Assembly: GCA_032027145.1 (NCBI GenBank)
Contig: JAVSMP010000001.1
Coordinates: 2,671,116 to 2,735,115, forward strand
Length of the DNA stretch: 64,000 bases
Source of the DNA: Ignavibacterium sp.
GTDB taxonomy: Bacteria > Bacteroidota > Ignavibacteria > Ignavibacteriales > Ignavibacteriaceae
Direction of reading: 5' to 3'
The position numbers and the translations under genes were made by a program. Below, one piece after another: positions 19,785 through 27,761 of this stretch. Under the pieces are notes generated by a model. It was not told the DNA's origin. It was given only the letters and a program-made list of their open reading frames with translations, and made no database searches. Numbering within the stretch: position 1 is the stretch's first letter; every line of letters starts with the position of its first letter.

Positions 19785-20343
19785 TTTTTTTCTTTTTTAT
19801 AAATTCAACTGCTCTGTAAACATAAGCAAGAAATGAAATAAACATTAAAACAATACTTGAAAAATAGAACAAAGTAAATATTAAACTATTTCTATCAATT
19901 CCCAGCAATATTAAAAGTACTACCATACCGATGCACAATACGGTAATCTTGCCAAGTATGTTTGAAGGTAAAACAGTTCCAAGTATTTTGGTAACGATTA
20001 AACCGCCAAAAAAAATAAGTATATCACGAAGAAATATTGTCAGGAAAAAGAATAAATTTATTTCGCCAATTAAAAACAATTTAATTACAACAACTGCCAT
20101 TGCAGCTTTATCAGCTAATGGATCAATAATTTTACCTAACTCTGTTATTTGATTTAATTTTCTGGCAAGATATCCATCAAGGATATCAGTAGCAGCAGCA
20201 AACAGACACAAGGCAAATGTAATATATCTTACTGATTGCAATTCATAATGATCAAGCAAAAACCAAAGAGGAATTACCAAAAGAAGTCTAAGTAAACTAA
20301 TTCCGTTTGATATCGTAAATATTTCCTGACTGGAAAATTTCAT
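19771..20343 (-). CDS. pgsA: CDP-diacylglycerol--glycerol-3-phosphate 3-phosphatidyltransferase
   Basis: This membrane enzyme makes phosphatidylglycerol phosphate from CDP-diacylglycerol and glycerol-3-phosphate. Its 190 residues match PgsA. The CDP-alcohol phosphotransferase signature DG-x2-AR-x8-G-x3-D-x3-D is complete (from DGYLARKL to DPLADK, near residues 58-80). Several hydrophobic segments follow (about 88-175). It overlaps the subtilase gene by four bases and ftsY by 14. The family is shared with other CDP-alcohol transferases, so the glycerol-3-phosphate substrate is the likely rather than proven one. Confidence 0.88.
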   Translation of the reverse strand: MKFSSQEIFTISNGISLLRLLLVIPLWFLLDHYELQSVRYITFALCLFAAATDILDGYLARKLNQITELGKIIDPLADKAAMAVVVIKLFLIGEINLFFFLTIFLRDILIFFGGLIVTKILGTVLPSNILGKITVLCIGMVVLLILLGIDRNSLIFTLFYFSSIVLMFISFLAYVYRAVEFIKKKKNESV

Positions 20344-23300
20344 CTTATGATTGCAAACTTTCCGAGTTTTTCCTCACCTTCATTTCTCATATTATCCAGT
20401 TGAACAATACGATAAATATATACACCGCTCGATATTCTATTTCCTGAAAAATCTTTTAGATAAAAATCTACACCACCATTACCATCATTTTCTTCTAATT
20501 CATATATTATTTGTCCATCTATAGACCAGATTGTAATCTTAGCCCTTTGAGGAAGATTTGCGAATGTTATCTTTTCTGCGTTTTCTTTCGTTGGATTTGG
20601 ATATACAAAAACACCTGATAAATCTTTTGCAAATGTTGATAATACCAGGTAACTGCCGGCTCCCGAGTTTATGGTAACTCCACCGGATGCTGCATCAGAA
20701 ATAAGATCTTTAATTCTTAAAACATACTCCTTCCCTATTGAACCTACTGGTTTATTACCAGTTAAATCAAGATAAATGATTTTGGGATCTGTTTGATCTA
20801 TATATACTGATGAAACTTTGTTATCTGGAGTAAAAATATAATTATTTGTATTTAAAGCTGAATTTTGATCTACCGGAAAATTAAATGTGAGTTTTATTTT
20901 ATATGAATTTATAATTTCAAAATTTGAAACATAAAATGAAGGATCTTCCGGGCTGGATATCGTTGTAAAAGTTAAAGTATCTGTTTGAATCGGCGAACCA
21001 TAAAAATCTCTAATATCTTTTATAACGATCTGATGCTCACCGTTTGAAAAATCTGAATTAAAAGTTAATAAATATGAATATTGATTATTTGCAGTGATAG
21101 AATTAGGATAACCAAAACCTAAAACATTAAATGACTGAAGATTATCAATTGTGTTTTTCATCTTTTCTGAAAAAGTAACAATAACACTTCTGTTACTGTT
21201 GCTGACAGCATTAATAGCGATTGCAGGTGTATGGGAATATACACTGATAATATTACTCATTCCCGAAAGCGGAATCAGGTTAAAAGGATTATACGACCGA
21301 ACTCCATAATAATAATTCTTATCTGGCTCTACAAAATTATCAATATAGCTTGGTTCAAAAACAAGTGAGTCAATCAAAATCAAATTATCGGGAGTTAATC
21401 CTTTGTAAATATAAAACCGTTCTGCAAGAGCAGACCATTTTAACTGTATAGCCGAAGCAGATATACTAAAACCATTTAAGCCAAGTGGTTTAGGAGCCTG
21501 CTCAGAAAAAGTAAATTCGATAAACTGTATTCCGTTTTCTGTGGGGAAAGCAACTTCAGGTACACCGTTATCGTTCAAATCGCCAACAAAAATCGAATTT
21601 GAATTTATATTCTCTCTGTATGAAACTACCCTGACAGATCCAAAATCATATTTGAAGATATAAGAGTATGGAAAAACAAAAAGAATTAACTCATCTGAAC
21701 CATCATTATCAAGGTCTTTAAGTCTGATACTATTTTCAGATCTTCTAAATGTGTTATTAAATTCTGTAGAAGCATCTATTAAAGCTTTATCAAATAAGAA
21801 ATTAACCTGATTATTTAAAATATTAAATACAACAAGTCTATAGAACGGTGAAATATCGAGATCCTCAACTGAATGTAATAAGACAGCTAATTCTTGTTTT
21901 CCATCACCATCAAAATCACCAGAAGTAAGATGTGCAGAAGAACCAAGAAAACCTGTCCGGATTACGAAGCCCTTTTCGAATTTATTATTTCCAGTAATTT
22001 TATATCCAAAAATATCACCATCCTGATCTACCATCCAGAATTCATTTATTGCATCCCCATCTATATCAGTAATTACAGCATTAGGAGAATTAATTATATT
22101 GAAACCAAATCCTGAAGGTGAGAAATTAGTAAGTGTAGCTACTTTATTAAGATTTAATGATGAATTTACTTCCCATACTTCAATGGTTGAGTCATTCAAA
22201 ACACTAAATATTTCAGTAATACCATCATTATCAACATCCTTTGCTAAAATCGGCCAAAACTTACCGCCAACATTAGAATATTTTTCTGTAAAAGAATAAG
22301 AGTTAGAACTGCTTTGTTCATCTATAAAGCCATCCCGAACAAAATAATCTAACAAGTCTGTTAAACCATTATTATTAAAGTCGCCAGCCGCTTTCACAAT
22401 TCTATCATTAAGTGAATCTACGAGAACAAATTCATTATTCTGAAAAGAATAAATTGATGATACTTTTGGTGATGTATTTTTTCTTATGATAATATCTTTT
22501 GAGTTATTTGATAAAGAAATTTGATTTTCAAAAACACTACCGGGCGGTAAAGTAAATGATTGTATATAATCTGTAGAAAGTTCAGCTTCAAATGAAGTTG
22601 AAATCAAGAAATCTGTGTTATTATCTTTTATTATCGTTTTTAATCCAACAAGATTTTCAGCTTCTAAGTAAATCTGATATAAAGAGTTTTGTACAATCAG
22701 ATCTTTTGGGATGAAACCATAATGAATAGACTTAACAAATTGATTATTAATAGTAAATCCATCCAAGGTAACAAAATTATAATCGGCAGTTCCATAAAGC
22801 TTATAATAAAGACGCACGATTGAAGGATCATCAGTATAAACAGAAGCAAGTATAGTTGTTTTATCACCATAGAATGCTGGAATTATTGAAATCAACTCAG
22901 TAACAGGCGCACTTCTGTCAACATAAAAATTAATTCTTTCTTCAAGCGTCCTCCCTGTTGTCTGATTTACAATTAACCTTAAAGTATAAACTGTATCTGC
23001 AAATCCTGAAACATCCAAATCCAATATTTCTTCATTTGCAATCTGATATTGCTGATTGCTAATCAAGCTGATCCAATTTTTAGGATTAAGTCCAATTCCA
23101 TAATCCATACTAAATGATGAAAAATAAGGAGACAGAACTGAAACTTTAATCGGAATATTATTGCCAGAGGTTGCAAAATCCTGAGTTGGCGAATGAAATT
23201 TTATTGCGGATGGAGCAGTAACCGAGAGAACTTTAAATAAATTTAATCTTCCTGCTCCACTTTTTATATCCCAGCCAGGTTCACCAATATCATCAGTTGT

Positions 23301-24551
23301 AGATTTAATAATCTGTTTTACTTCTTCATTAGTAAAATTATTAAGTGAAAGAATTAAAGCAGCGGCTGCAGAAACAAAAGGTGCTGATGCTGAAGTTCCG
23401 CTAATTTCAGCATAACCATTATTACGGGCAGTTGTTAAAATTGAAGAACCAGGGGCAACCAGATCAATTGTAGAACCGTAATTTGAACTTCCTGCAACAT
23501 AATCTTCACGGGTAGAATTACCAACAGAAATTACTTCCGAATAACCAGATGGATAATGCGGCAAATTCGAACCTGTATTTCCGGCACTTGCTACAAGCAC
23601 AACCCCTTGACTGTAGGCATACCTGATAACATCACGCAGTACATACGAAAATGCATTATCACCAAAACTCATATTAATAACTTTTGCACCTATTTGTACT
23701 GCGTAAAGAATTGCAGCGGCGGCATCATCTTCTTCACCGTATCCTCCAGGATCAAAGGCGCGCAGATTAAGTACTTTAATCAGCGGAGCTGCCCCGGATA
23801 TGCCAGAAAAATTATTTGTTTGAGCTGCTGCTATTCCTGCAATATAAGTTCCATGCCCATTTTCATCAAAAGGATCATTGTCCCAGTCTAAATAATCTCC
23901 TCCGGTTGAATCGAAAGGAAATCCCAATCTATCAGTAAAATCCCATCCCATATAATCATCGATAAAACCATTTCCATCATCATCAATTCCGTTTGTTCTT
24001 TTATCATTTCCAAATTGATCGATTCCAATTTCACCGGAGTTTATATAAATTTTATTTTTTAAGTCAGGATGATCATAATCCATTCCGGTATCAATAATAG
24101 CAAGCAAAACTGTATCAGAACCTTGAGTAATATCCCATGCATTGAATGCTTGTATCTTTTCCAATGCCCATTGCTGAGAGACAAGACTGTCATTAGGTAT
24201 AAAATCAATCTTGTAATTATTTGCTTGTTGTATGTATTCAATATCAGGATCATTAGAAAATATTGAGTTGAGATTTTCTGCATCAACATTTTCAAAAAAT
24301 TTTATTTTCAGAATTCTCTCCAATACTTCATCTCCCATCCCGAGACCTTTTGCAAAATAGTTAATTTGAAATTCGGGAAAATTAATTTGTCTGTTTGCAA
24401 ATGTATCAGAGATTTTCTGTTCCGAAACTTTGTCAGCTATAATACTAAGTGGTACATTGTTTTTATATTTAATAAAAAATGTTGTTTGTGCTATTGATGT
24501 AACCGAAAAAAGTATTGATGTGATAAAAAGAAAAGCTGGATTAAACTTCAT
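20340..24551 (-). CDS. Secreted subtilisin-family (S8) protease with FG-GAP repeats and T9SS sorting domain
   Basis: This is a 1403-residue exported protease. A signal peptide (1-21) and an inhibitor-like N-region (about 22-115) precede the peptidase S8 domain. The triad is intact: D154 in IIDTGMDYDHPD, H233 in NGHGTYIAG, S387 in GTSASAP, with N325 as the oxyanion residue. The middle holds at least six VCBS/FG-GAP Ca-binding-like repeats of the GDFDGDGKQEL type (about 730-1020). Fibronectin-like segments follow, and the last ~80 residues form a T9SS type A sorting domain (VYPNPTKENAE). It overlaps purF by 11 bases and pgsA by four, an odd place for a secreted protease. Confidence 0.92.
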   Translation of the reverse strand: MKFNPAFLFITSILFSVTSIAQTTFFIKYKNNVPLSIIADKVSEQKISDTFANRQINFPEFQINYFAKGLGMGDEVLERILKIKFFENVDAENLNSIFSNDPDIEYIQQANNYKIDFIPNDSLVSQQWALEKIQAFNAWDITQGSDTVLLAIIDTGMDYDHPDLKNKIYINSGEIGIDQFGNDKRTNGIDDDGNGFIDDYMGWDFTDRLGFPFDSTGGDYLDWDNDPFDENGHGTYIAGIAAAQTNNFSGISGAAPLIKVLNLRAFDPGGYGEEDDAAAAILYAVQIGAKVINMSFGDNAFSYVLRDVIRYAYSQGVVLVASAGNTGSNLPHYPSGYSEVISVGNSTREDYVAGSSNYGSTIDLVAPGSSILTTARNNGYAEISGTSASAPFVSAAAALILSLNNFTNEEVKQIIKSTTDDIGEPGWDIKSGAGRLNLFKVLSVTAPSAIKFHSPTQDFATSGNNIPIKVSVLSPYFSSFSMDYGIGLNPKNWISLISNQQYQIANEEILDLDVSGFADTVYTLRLIVNQTTGRTLEERINFYVDRSAPVTELISIIPAFYGDKTTILASVYTDDPSIVRLYYKLYGTADYNFVTLDGFTINNQFVKSIHYGFIPKDLIVQNSLYQIYLEAENLVGLKTIIKDNNTDFLISTSFEAELSTDYIQSFTLPPGSVFENQISLSNNSKDIIIRKNTSPKVSSIYSFQNNEFVLVDSLNDRIVKAAGDFNNNGLTDLLDYFVRDGFIDEQSSSNSYSFTEKYSNVGGKFWPILAKDVDNDGITEIFSVLNDSTIEVWEVNSSLNLNKVATLTNFSPSGFGFNIINSPNAVITDIDGDAINEFWMVDQDGDIFGYKITGNNKFEKGFVIRTGFLGSSAHLTSGDFDGDGKQELAVLLHSVEDLDISPFYRLVVFNILNNQVNFLFDKALIDASTEFNNTFRRSENSIRLKDLDNDGSDELILFVFPYSYIFKYDFGSVRVVSYRENINSNSIFVGDLNDNGVPEVAFPTENGIQFIEFTFSEQAPKPLGLNGFSISASAIQLKWSALAERFYIYKGLTPDNLILIDSLVFEPSYIDNFVEPDKNYYYGVRSYNPFNLIPLSGMSNIISVYSHTPAIAINAVSNSNRSVIVTFSEKMKNTIDNLQSFNVLGFGYPNSITANNQYSYLLTFNSDFSNGEHQIVIKDIRDFYGSPIQTDTLTFTTISSPEDPSFYVSNFEIINSYKIKLTFNFPVDQNSALNTNNYIFTPDNKVSSVYIDQTDPKIIYLDLTGNKPVGSIGKEYVLRIKDLISDAASGGVTINSGAGSYLVLSTFAKDLSGVFVYPNPTKENAEKITFANLPQRAKITIWSIDGQIIYELEENDGNGGVDFYLKDFSGNRISSGVYIYRIVQLDNMRNEGEEKLGKFAIIR

Positions 24552-26022
24552 ACATCTCCTTTTTGAAGCTAGTATCTATTTTTGTTGGATACTGACCTGA
24601 AAAACAAGCTGTACAAAAATTATCTTTACCTGCTTCAGAAACTGCTTCCAACATCTCTTCGATAGTTAAGTATTCCAAGCTATCTACTTCAAGATACTTT
24701 TTAATCTCTTTTATATCTCCTTTTTTTTGGAAAGCAATTAATTCCTCACTGCTTGGAAAATCCATCCCATAAAAACAGGGATACATTATTGGTGGAGATG
24801 ATATTCTTAGATGAACAGCTTTTGGTTTTGCTTCTTTAATTAAGTGAACAAGTTGTTTTGATGTAGTACCGCGGACAATCGAATCATCAACAAGAACTAT
24901 TGTTCTACCTTCGAGAACACCTTTAACGATATTAAACTTGATTCTTACTCCCATTTCTCTGTTTGATTGACCAGGTTTAATAAAAGTTCGCCCAATATAA
25001 TGACTCCTTATCAAACCGATTTCTAATCTTGAATCAATTCCCATCTTTTCTAATTCCCGTGCATATCCTAATGCAGTAGTGTTTGAACTATCAGGAACAC
25101 TAATTACAAAAACTTTATCTCCATCAGGGTCCACAACAGGATGATTTTTTGCAAGAACCTTTCCTAGTCTTCTGCGCATTTTATCAACATTATGTCCGAA
25201 GATAAAACTATCGGGGCGTGAAAAATATATATATTCGAAAACACAATATTTCTTTGGCTGATGGTCGCCATTTATTTTATAAGATTTTATTTGTTTGGTC
25301 TTAATAACTTCATCATCAATAACTATAAGTTCACCTGGTTCAACTTCTCTGACAAAGTCTGCATGTTGAATGTCAAATGCACAGGTTTCAGAGGCAGCCA
25401 AAAAAGCATTACCAAGTTTTCCGATTGATAATGGTCTGAATCCAAGCGGATCCCTTGCTGCAATTAATTTATCATCAGTTAAAATAACAAGGCAATACGC
25501 GCCTTCAATTCGTCTCAATGCTTCTACTATCTGATCAATCTGATTATCAAGTCTGCTTCGAGCAATTAAATGTAGGATAACTTCTGTATCGCTTGTAGTT
25601 TGAAAAATAGCACCTTCATTTACTAACTCTTCACGAAGTTCTTTTGCATTTGTCAGATTTCCGTTATGTGCAACAGCCAGATTCCCCATTCGATAATTAA
25701 CCATAAACGGCTGAATATTCTTTCTTGATTTAGCAGTGCCTGTTGTAGAGTATCTATTATGTCCGATTGCTGAATTACCAATCAAAACATCTGAAAGTAA
25801 TGACAGATCTTCAAATACTTCCGAAACTAATCCCTCACCTTTAACAATATTAAAGTGAGGTTTATTATCACCATTAAACGACCTTGTAACAATTCCGCTG
25901 GCTTCCTGTCCCCGATGCTGTAAAGCATGCAACCCATAATATACCTGAGCAGAAGCACCTTCATAACCATATATCCCAAATATACCGCAATAAGAAATAG
26001 GTTTATCTTCTATGTAATTCAT
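24541..26022 (-). CDS. purF: Amidophosphoribosyltransferase
   Basis: PurF catalyses the first committed step of purine synthesis, making 5-phosphoribosylamine from PRPP and glutamine. The 493-residue protein carries an 11-residue propeptide before the N-terminal nucleophile Cys12 (YCGIFGIYG), so it must be processed. The PRPP site is VLVDDSIVRGTTSKQ near residue 360. Cysteines in KYCVFEY, MYPCFYG and FCTACFSG match the [4Fe-4S] ligand pattern of the Bacillus-type enzyme. It is the first gene of the purF-subtilase-pgsA-ftsY run. Confidence 0.96.
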   Translation of the reverse strand: MNYIEDKPISYCGIFGIYGYEGASAQVYYGLHALQHRGQEASGIVTRSFNGDNKPHFNIVKGEGLVSEVFEDLSLLSDVLIGNSAIGHNRYSTTGTAKSRKNIQPFMVNYRMGNLAVAHNGNLTNAKELREELVNEGAIFQTTSDTEVILHLIARSRLDNQIDQIVEALRRIEGAYCLVILTDDKLIAARDPLGFRPLSIGKLGNAFLAASETCAFDIQHADFVREVEPGELIVIDDEVIKTKQIKSYKINGDHQPKKYCVFEYIYFSRPDSFIFGHNVDKMRRRLGKVLAKNHPVVDPDGDKVFVISVPDSSNTTALGYARELEKMGIDSRLEIGLIRSHYIGRTFIKPGQSNREMGVRIKFNIVKGVLEGRTIVLVDDSIVRGTTSKQLVHLIKEAKPKAVHLRISSPPIMYPCFYGMDFPSSEELIAFQKKGDIKEIKKYLEVDSLEYLTIEEMLEAVSEAGKDNFCTACFSGQYPTKIDTSFKKEMYEV

Positions 26023-26178: not shown

Positions 26179-26655
26179 ATGGATTTATCAGTAATAGAAT
26201 CATTTACAAAACAAAAGAATATAGCTGTTGTTGGTGTATCGTCAAAAGGCAAAGGATTTGGAGCCTCAGTTTTTAAACATCTGAAAGATAACAACTATAA
26301 TGCTTTTGCTGTTAATAAGAACGGCGGGACCTTAAATGATATTAAACTTTATAATTCACTTTCTTCTATTGAACATACTATTGATGGAGTTATTACTGTT
26401 GTGCCGCCATTTGAAACAGAAAATATAGTTAAAGAAGCCAAAGAGTTAGGTATAAAATTTATCTGGATGCAGCAAGGATCAGAATCGAATAATGCTATTA
26501 ACTACTGTAAAGAAAACGGAATGCTGGTTGTATCAGGCGAATGTATTTTGATGTTTGTTGAACCGGTAAAATCAATTCATAAGTTTCACCGCTGGATTGA
26601 TAAAGTTACAGGAAAAGTTACAGGAAAATTTCCACAAGCTGAAAAAGCGAATTAA
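26179..26655 (+). CDS. CoA-binding (Rossmann-fold) domain protein
   Basis: This 158-residue protein belongs to the CoA_binding/YccU group, a stand-alone version of the nucleotide-binding domain of succinyl-CoA ligase. The pattern is VVGVSSKGKGFGASVFKHL near residue 17, ITVVPPFETENIVKEA in the middle, and FIWMQQGSES near 95. The Cys in SGECILMF corresponds to the conserved position before the C-terminal helix. An AAGGA site lies 10 bases before the ATG. The cellular role of this family is not well defined. Confidence 0.88.
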   Translation: MDLSVIESFTKQKNIAVVGVSSKGKGFGASVFKHLKDNNYNAFAVNKNGGTLNDIKLYNSLSSIEHTIDGVITVVPPFETENIVKEAKELGIKFIWMQQGSESNNAINYCKENGMLVVSGECILMFVEPVKSIHKFHRWIDKVTGKVTGKFPQAEKAN

Positions 26656-26744: not shown

Positions 26745-27761
26745 CTAATCTAAAAAATTTGCAATCTCCTCTCTCACTCTGTCTATTTCACATGAAACTG
26801 CGAGATGACCGCAATTATTATCAAGTACTAAAAGTCTCGATGAAGTTAAGTTAGCAAGATCAATTGCTTCAGAAGGGTTTAGCAATAAATCCGATTTGCT
26901 TACAATGATGAACATTTTAGCTATGATCTTTTCAGATGCTTCTGTCATTGATTCATTTGTATCTCTGGAAATATCATGTTTCATCATAGCTTTTAATTGT
27001 GTAAGATAATTTTGTAATGTAAAAATCTTTTTTGATTCCTTATCAAATGAATCCAGATAATTTTGAAATTCAGACCTGTCAATATCTTTAGTAACATAAT
27101 CAGGAGTTCTGGCAAAGTTAGCTGATAGTATTTCTGATAACCTGGTTACCTCCCTTTCACTCATTCCGCAATTTAAAGATGACTCAATCAGATTTTGTTG
27201 AGTTGCCATCCATAAAAGATCTGAACTGCTTAATCGTGGTGTAGCGACATAACCAATTATTTTTTTAGCAAACTCAGGATATGTAACAGCCATTTGAAGA
27301 ACCTGCATGCTACCCATCGACCCGCCGATTGCTGCATAAATTCTATTTAATCCGAAATGTTCAGTAAGCAATTTGTAATTTGCATTTACCATATCAGAAA
27401 TTGATAAGCTATAAAACACAGAATCGGATATATCAGAGTTTGAAATCGAGGATGATACTCCATTTCCTAATGCATCCACTGCAATTATAAAATATTTTGT
27501 TGTATCAATAAACTTGTATTTATTTATCAGGATTCCGATCGCTTCTGAGTTGCCTCCGAACCAGCTGCAATAAAGCACAACATTGGATGAATCTTTACTA
27601 ATAGAGCCGAAAGTTCTATAGCCAATTTTACAATTATTGATAGTATAGCCGGCTTCTGTTTCAAAACTATTTATCTGATAGAACTTCTGTATTGATTGAG
27701 CATTCAAACAAATGTCTAACGAAAGTAAAAATAACAAGGTCAAGAAAAATGTTTTTCTCAT
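26745..27761 (-). CDS. Secreted alpha/beta hydrolase, MetX (homoserine O-acetyltransferase)-like
   Basis: The 338 residues open with a signal peptide (1-22, ending CLNAQ) and then the MetX-type alpha/beta fold. The nucleophile elbow is AAIGGSMGSMQ (S148), with D291 in VSKSDLLLNP and H319 in NNCGHLAV completing a triad. The GGSMG elbow and the preceding DALGNG segment are characteristic of homoserine acetyltransferase relatives. The family is normally cytoplasmic, so the export signal points to a different substrate outside the cytoplasm, perhaps an ester or amide. No methionine genes are adjacent. Confidence 0.82.
   Translation of the reverse strand: MRKTFFLTLLFLLSLDICLNAQSIQKFYQINSFETEAGYTINNCKIGYRTFGSISKDSSNVVLYCSWFGGNSEAIGILINKYKFIDTTKYFIIAVDALGNGVSSSISNSDISDSVFYSLSISDMVNANYKLLTEHFGLNRIYAAIGGSMGSMQVLQMAVTYPEFAKKIIGYVATPRLSSSDLLWMATQQNLIESSLNCGMSEREVTRLSEILSANFARTPDYVTKDIDRSEFQNYLDSFDKESKKIFTLQNYLTQLKAMMKHDISRDTNESMTEASEKIIAKMFIIVSKSDLLLNPSEAIDLANLTSSRLLVLDNNCGHLAVSCEIDRVREEIANFLD

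Follow-up and report, generated by a model that had tools for sequence, protein, structure and literature searches.

The gene at positions 26745..27761 (minus strand, ATG start) encodes a MetX-like alpha/beta hydrolase of 338 amino acids, which we regard with reasonable confidence as a serine esterase of the MetX-like type that is exported by Sec, most likely to the periplasm. Positions refer to the window, i.e. the whole stretch of 64,000 nucleotides that was analysed. Because the protein appears to be an exported relative of MetX without the residues that bind the MetX substrate, it most likely cleaves esters, and would do so outside the cytoplasm. The host genome is a single contig of 3.67 Mb with a completeness of 99.54%. 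Among named records the nearest is 'Ignavibacteriota bacterium isolate IGN3' (CP053447.1); its homologue shares 95% identity with the window protein. Comparisons of the mature part with this homologue (dN 0.014, dS 0.21) and with a 77% identical homologue (dN 0.125, dS 0.87) demonstrate that it is under purifying selection.

A close, near-full-length homologue scoring at least 214 bits was carried by 27 of the 59 genomes searched (its own and relatives), the next score being 75. Within the same family the gene was present in 25 of 37 genomes, its own included. In an even draw of the phylum (395 genomes, again with its own) 17 genomes had a copy at 325 bits or more, after which the scores dropped to 176 or less. 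A total of 33 clade sequences were taken for the counts given below. Left out of the counts were L043 with its in-frame stops, a second G035 copy for which there was no locus, the frame-broken L104 of Spirosoma, L075 and L079, for neither of which a start had been chosen (L079 and L039 are one gene), L041 and L042 (the same record as, or near copies of, L012 and L013), and those loci of the phylum draw that repeated genes of the 59-genome search. The tree comprised 64 sequences, eight of which were flagged for odd letter make-up (L065, L066, L068, L072, L105, L109, L118, and 5w8o), and was midpoint-rooted for drawing only. The 33 exported sequences formed one side of a 100/100 branch, and the 23 MetX and six PRK07581-type sequences each formed one side of a branch of their own (100/97 for PRK07581). 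The clade did not group with the PRK07581-type sequences and 5e4y/5d6o but stayed separate. A phylogeny including members with signal peptides had been proposed in the initial annotation; its outcome is that the exported sequences stand apart from both MetX and the PRK07581/MekB esterases.

The signal peptide, the MetX-type hydrolase and the complete triad of the initial annotation were confirmed, as the open reading frame, the N-terminus and all three catalytic residues are present. The nucleophile S148 lies in a GGSMGS elbow (codon 27318..27320), the acid is D291 (codon 26889..26891), and the base is H319 (codon 26805..26807), located within CGHLAVSC where MetX has GHD; all three codons are on the minus strand. 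Each residue was kept in 33 of 33 clade sequences and was invariant also in a 27-row family alignment, and the residue following H319 was L in 27 and D in one of the 33. Pfam assigned Abhydrolase_1 (52.8 bits, cut-off 25.8), and this domain, the triad, and the predicted signal peptide together describe a putative exported alpha/beta hydrolase.

The best NCBIfam match was PRK07581 (NF005757; 6e-50), a model matched by 27/27 family members; the window protein scored 170 bits, below the cut-off of 332, compared to 433-495 for three plasmid-borne PRK07581 members. Matches to the MetX models reached 7.9e-36. TIGR01392 yielded 124 bits against a cut-off of 500, which does not decide the matter since the MetX of relatives also score below 500 (at most 467; L039, 477). 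PRK00175 (NF001209) yielded 121 bits, below its cut-off of 331, and the positive control L039, the true MetX of a relative, yielded 469. The E22 model (NF005262) gave 107 bits, below its cut-off of 450. The best PDB matches were 5e4y (6.5e-30) and 5d6o (1.8e-26), followed by deacetylcephalosporin C acetyltransferase (2vat), E22, and MetX. An AlphaFold model built from three sequences (window, L041, and L042) had a mean pLDDT of 44. Since no NCBIfam or Pfam model except Abhydrolase_1 reached its cut-off for the window protein, the clade, predicted to be exported in all sequences taken and mostly carrying a cysteine pair, appears to be without an existing name. In the literature searched, a weak guide as it consisted mostly of papers available without subscription, no paper was recognised as being about an exported MetX-like esterase. 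What is already known is that there are MetX-like esterases without transferase activity, and that export occurs in single sequences elsewhere in the superfamily (L107 and L072).

The predicted signal peptide covers residues 1-22 (27696..27761, minus strand; MRKTFFLTLLFLLSLDICLNAQ) and consists of a charged n-region, a hydrophobic core, and an A-Q end. It was assigned from hydropathy and the n-region, and the probable cleavage near A21-Q22 was judged by eye. The Kyte-Doolittle 12-residue maximum of the window protein was 2.42, at residue 4. A hydrophobic N-terminal stretch was found in 33 of 33 clade sequences (12-residue maxima 1.82 to 3.74), and K or R preceded it in 26 of the 28 examined. 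Of the 23 MetX sequences, 12 retain their own starts and gave 12-residue N-terminal maxima of no more than 0.95; the remaining 11 had been cut down to the matched region and were excluded from this comparison. The absence of an export signal, a feature of MetX, does not extend to the clade, where all 33 N-termini resemble signal peptides. The pattern suggests that the initial annotation was probably right in calling the protein exported. No lipobox was seen in the window protein by eye and no C-terminal sorting domain was found by the Pfam scan, which makes the periplasm its likely location.

A wrong start would turn the signal peptide into an artefact and the protein into a cytoplasmic one. 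In-frame TTG codons occur at residues 7, 9, and 19 of the window gene; a start at the last of them would remove most of the signal peptide, and no strong ribosome-binding site was seen by eye upstream of the ATG. Arguing against a wrong start, the 95% and 77% identical homologues contain no other ATG, GTG, or TTG within the approximately 40 codons scanned, and hydrophobicity has been retained in a signal region that drifts fast (against the 95% homologue, dN is 0.15 in residues 1-22 and 0.014 in the mature part). Because the hydrophobic N-terminus is present in all 33 clade sequences and in none of the 12 own-start MetX sequences, a start-site artefact is unlikely, as is the later true start lacking a signal peptide that the initial annotation had allowed for; we assign scarcely any probability to a cytoplasmic protein with a mis-called start.

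Two cysteines flank the catalytic His319. C317 and C324 (in CGHLAVSC; codons C317 to C324 at 26790..26813, minus strand) were both present in 27 of the 33 clade sequences and both missing from six, and neither was ever found singly. The pair was found in 0/23 MetX and 0/6 PRK07581-type sequences; C317 was absent from all six of the latter, two of which (PDB sequences) end before C324. On a tree with both columns masked, each cysteine changed six times. In independent pairs on well supported branches the two cysteines changed together in five cases out of five, and the sign test value of 0.0625 is the best possible with five pairs. Seven cysteine columns were filled in five sequences or more; of the 21 pairs that they form, only C317-C324 was linked, with a Fisher value of 9e-7 that ignores relatedness; the next value was 0.073. 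The two residues probably form a disulfide that would hold the His loop. Such a pair would suit an oxidising compartment and in that way lends support to export; as six of the 33 clade sequences manage without it, the clade as a whole does not require it.

PMC6937278 describes Thr61, Arg227, Tyr234, and Asp351 (MtMetX numbering) as conserved tunnel residues of homoserine acetyltransferases (HTAs), located in the HALTGD and GHD(G/A)FL motifs and in the lid. Each of the four was present in 23/23 MetX sequences. In the exported clade Thr61 was found in 1/33, Arg227 in 2/33, Tyr234 in 1/33, and Asp351 in 1/33, and all four were absent (0/6) from the PRK07581-type sequences, 5e4y and 5d6o included. 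The window protein kept none, having G, E, A, and L at these positions; positions in the lid (Arg227 and Tyr234) are aligned with less certainty than those in the His loop. The protein shares with MetX (TIGR01392, PRK00175) the fold family as judged by sequence, the triad, and the GGSMG elbow, and differs in its predicted export and in lacking the HALTGD and GHD motifs and the lid Arg and Tyr. By its residues the clade is unlike MetX and resembles the MetX-like esterases, though it branches outside their group. The new substrate suggested in the initial annotation is supported to the extent that, with residues that do not fit a homoserine acetyltransferase, the enzyme probably acts on another substrate, such as an ester. 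A single clade sequence, the long-branched L067, combined a Tyr234-like with an Asp351-like residue, and its genome (G096) contains a MetX as well.

The absence of these residues bears directly on the possibility that the protein is after all the genome's own homoserine acetyltransferase, with a mis-called start or a dual location. The methionine pathway of the host gives this reading some ground. In a search of its own genome with the MetX model only the window gene matched, and neither MetA/HTS nor HcyBio had a match. The genome also contains three S-methyltransferase-domain matches, one of them within a frame of 1265 aa, as MetH has, and seven Cys/Met PLP enzyme matches, of which the two strong ones were both best to the methionine gamma-lyase model, below its cut-off. 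Because MetX, MetA and HcyBio are unmatched although genes of the methionine-synthase type are present, the start of the pathway could not be recognised, which may reflect a need for methionine or an unrecognised route. The other genomes with a clade member were divided: 19 of 32 had no clear MetX (a few of these 19 are less than 90% complete), and 13 of 32 carried MetX too (314-467 bits). All four tunnel residues were present in the ten of these 13 MetX that were checked by residue (L109-L118; those of G013, G096, and G031 were not among them). Clade presence is thus not tied to methionine synthesis. The separate cytoplasmic MetX that the initial annotation wished to see checked is, in sum, missing from its own genome and present in 13 of the 32 others. 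Given also the four missing tunnel residues, the 121 bits for PRK00175 against 469 for a true MetX, and the hydrophobic N-termini throughout the clade, we consider a homoserine acetyltransferase very improbable. The description of the gene as an exported paralogue holds, probably, for export; a recent paralogue of a resident MetX it is not, because the genome has no second match to the MetX model and the clade is separate and well supported.

The closest known proteins, by both family and structure match, are the PRK07581-type esterases (NF005757; 5e4y and 5d6o). They share with the window protein the triad, the lack of the four tunnel residues, and the W in a PTW/CSW motif. They differ in that the window protein is predicted to be exported, whereas three of the four full-length PRK07581-type sequences have no such N-terminus. 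Identity to the Rhodococcus PRK07581-type relatives was 27-29%. We take 5e4y and 5d6o to be MekB of Pseudomonas veronii and CgHle of Corynebacterium glutamicum, with activity on acetate esters, and presumably the two enzymes of Tolzer 2016, where structures of two proteins homologous to HTAs reportedly led to the suggestion of a novel esterase subfamily. The E22-family MetX-like putative esterase (NF005262; 5jkf and 5jkj) has the MetX-type sequence match in common with the window protein, which scored only 107 bits where 450 are required. Its structures presumably belong to the work of Li et al. 2017, in which an HTA-like protein is said to have 'no transferase activity'. Two further MetX-like hydrolases, L107 and L072, have a hydrophobic N-terminus as the window protein does; unlike the clade they lack the cysteine pair and belong to other branches (L107 with PRK07581, L072 with L068), and export has thus probably arisen on more than one occasion. 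L107:1396-2508, on a plasmid of Vibrio sp. THAF191d, is a PRK07581-branch protein with its own signal-peptide-like N-terminus, at a place where the (incomplete) gene table has no entry; L072:1012-2160 (minus strand) encodes the other of the two. In PMC9226776 a 'homoserine transacetylase' family is counted among putative lipolytic proteins.

The mechanism we propose begins with export, after which the signal peptide would be cleaved near A21-Q22 and the His319 loop pinned by the C317-C324 disulfide. A small ester would enter the tunnel under the lid and lose its acyl group (most likely acetyl) to Ser148, with His319 and Asp291 activating this nucleophile, and the acid would then be released by water. 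The preference for acetyl-type esters is only carried over from distant characterised relatives, because the tree places the clade outside the PRK07581 group, and it may not apply here.

Alpha/beta hydrolases with this triad often act as amidases, peptidases, or lactonases, and an exported enzyme of one of these kinds in place of an ester hydrolase is a reading we consider unlikely. Weak matches to proline iminopeptidase-family models occurred in 12 of the 27 family members (best 5.9e-7) and to enol-lactonase models in eight (best 1.4e-7), far weaker than those to the MetX-like models, which were found in 27/27 members (best 5.6e-68). An ester is consequently the better bet of the 'ester or amide' named in the initial annotation, and the amide has no particular support.

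The acyl-enzyme could also be resolved by an alcohol acceptor, i.e. a surface sugar, a lipid, or a small alcohol, in which case the protein would be an exported acyltransferase using a donor other than CoA. Acyl-enzyme chemistry suits transfer as well as hydrolysis, the same fold performs transfer in MetX and in deacetylcephalosporin C acetyltransferase (2vat), and the gene is frequent in its family, as given above. HTA-like proteins have, on the other hand, reportedly been called esterases in both papers mentioned, and no neighbour shared beyond the nearest genomes points to a donor or an acceptor. The gene adjoins that of a CoA-binding protein (26179-26655) and lies beside purF (24541-26022); the same region holds a large subtilase (20340-24551, minus strand) with FG-GAP repeats and a C-terminal T9SS-type sorting domain (NCBIfam 32 bits, cut-off 23; Pfam 25, cut-off 27). 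We compared 20 loci (the window and 19 stretches, several of which end at contig ends), omitting the near-identical nearest copy, L081. With the window included, the CoA-binding protein was shared by 7/20, purF by 7/20, and the S8 protease by 6/20 loci, all among the closest in sequence, which is local synteny. No other neighbour cluster occurred in more than three of the 20 loci, and there is no operon partner from which a substrate could be named. We judge an acyltransferase to be improbable, and esterase activity remains the preferred reading. In three loci another apparently exported protein is encoded beside the homologue by a divergent gene (L084:5013-5936, minus strand, and relatives in L086 and L087); to us the L084 protein looks to be of the SMP-30/gluconolactonase kind.

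A bolder proposal, which we would call quite doubtful, is that a MetX-derived clade left the cytoplasm, traded the homoserine-binding GHD for a disulfide-pinned CGHL....C, and now acts on acyl groups in the periplasm independently of CoA, either as a transacylase or as an enzyme dedicated to stripping them from a specific envelope component or a scavenged metabolite. Periplasmic acyl transfer, if true, would clearly exemplify the re-use of a CoA enzyme fold in a compartment that lacks CoA. Because the MetX models match such proteins well (7.9e-36 for the window protein), they could be annotated as homoserine acetyltransferases, and metabolic models could wrongly credit a step of methionine synthesis. 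A simple sequence test would separate the clade from MetX: the presence of a signal peptide, a catalytic His that is not part of a GHD motif, and usually CGH....C.

Among more distant or damaged copies, a scan of viral contigs yielded one distant relative, L119, at 24% identity. The homologue at L043:5941-6951 in the metagenome-assembled genome Ignavibacteria bacterium RBG_16_34_14 has two in-frame stops and represents either a decayed gene or a sequence error. On a plasmid of Spirosoma sp. KNUC1025 (L104:1501-2415) a frame-broken relative of 35% identity lies in three pieces, with the CGH....C pair still there.
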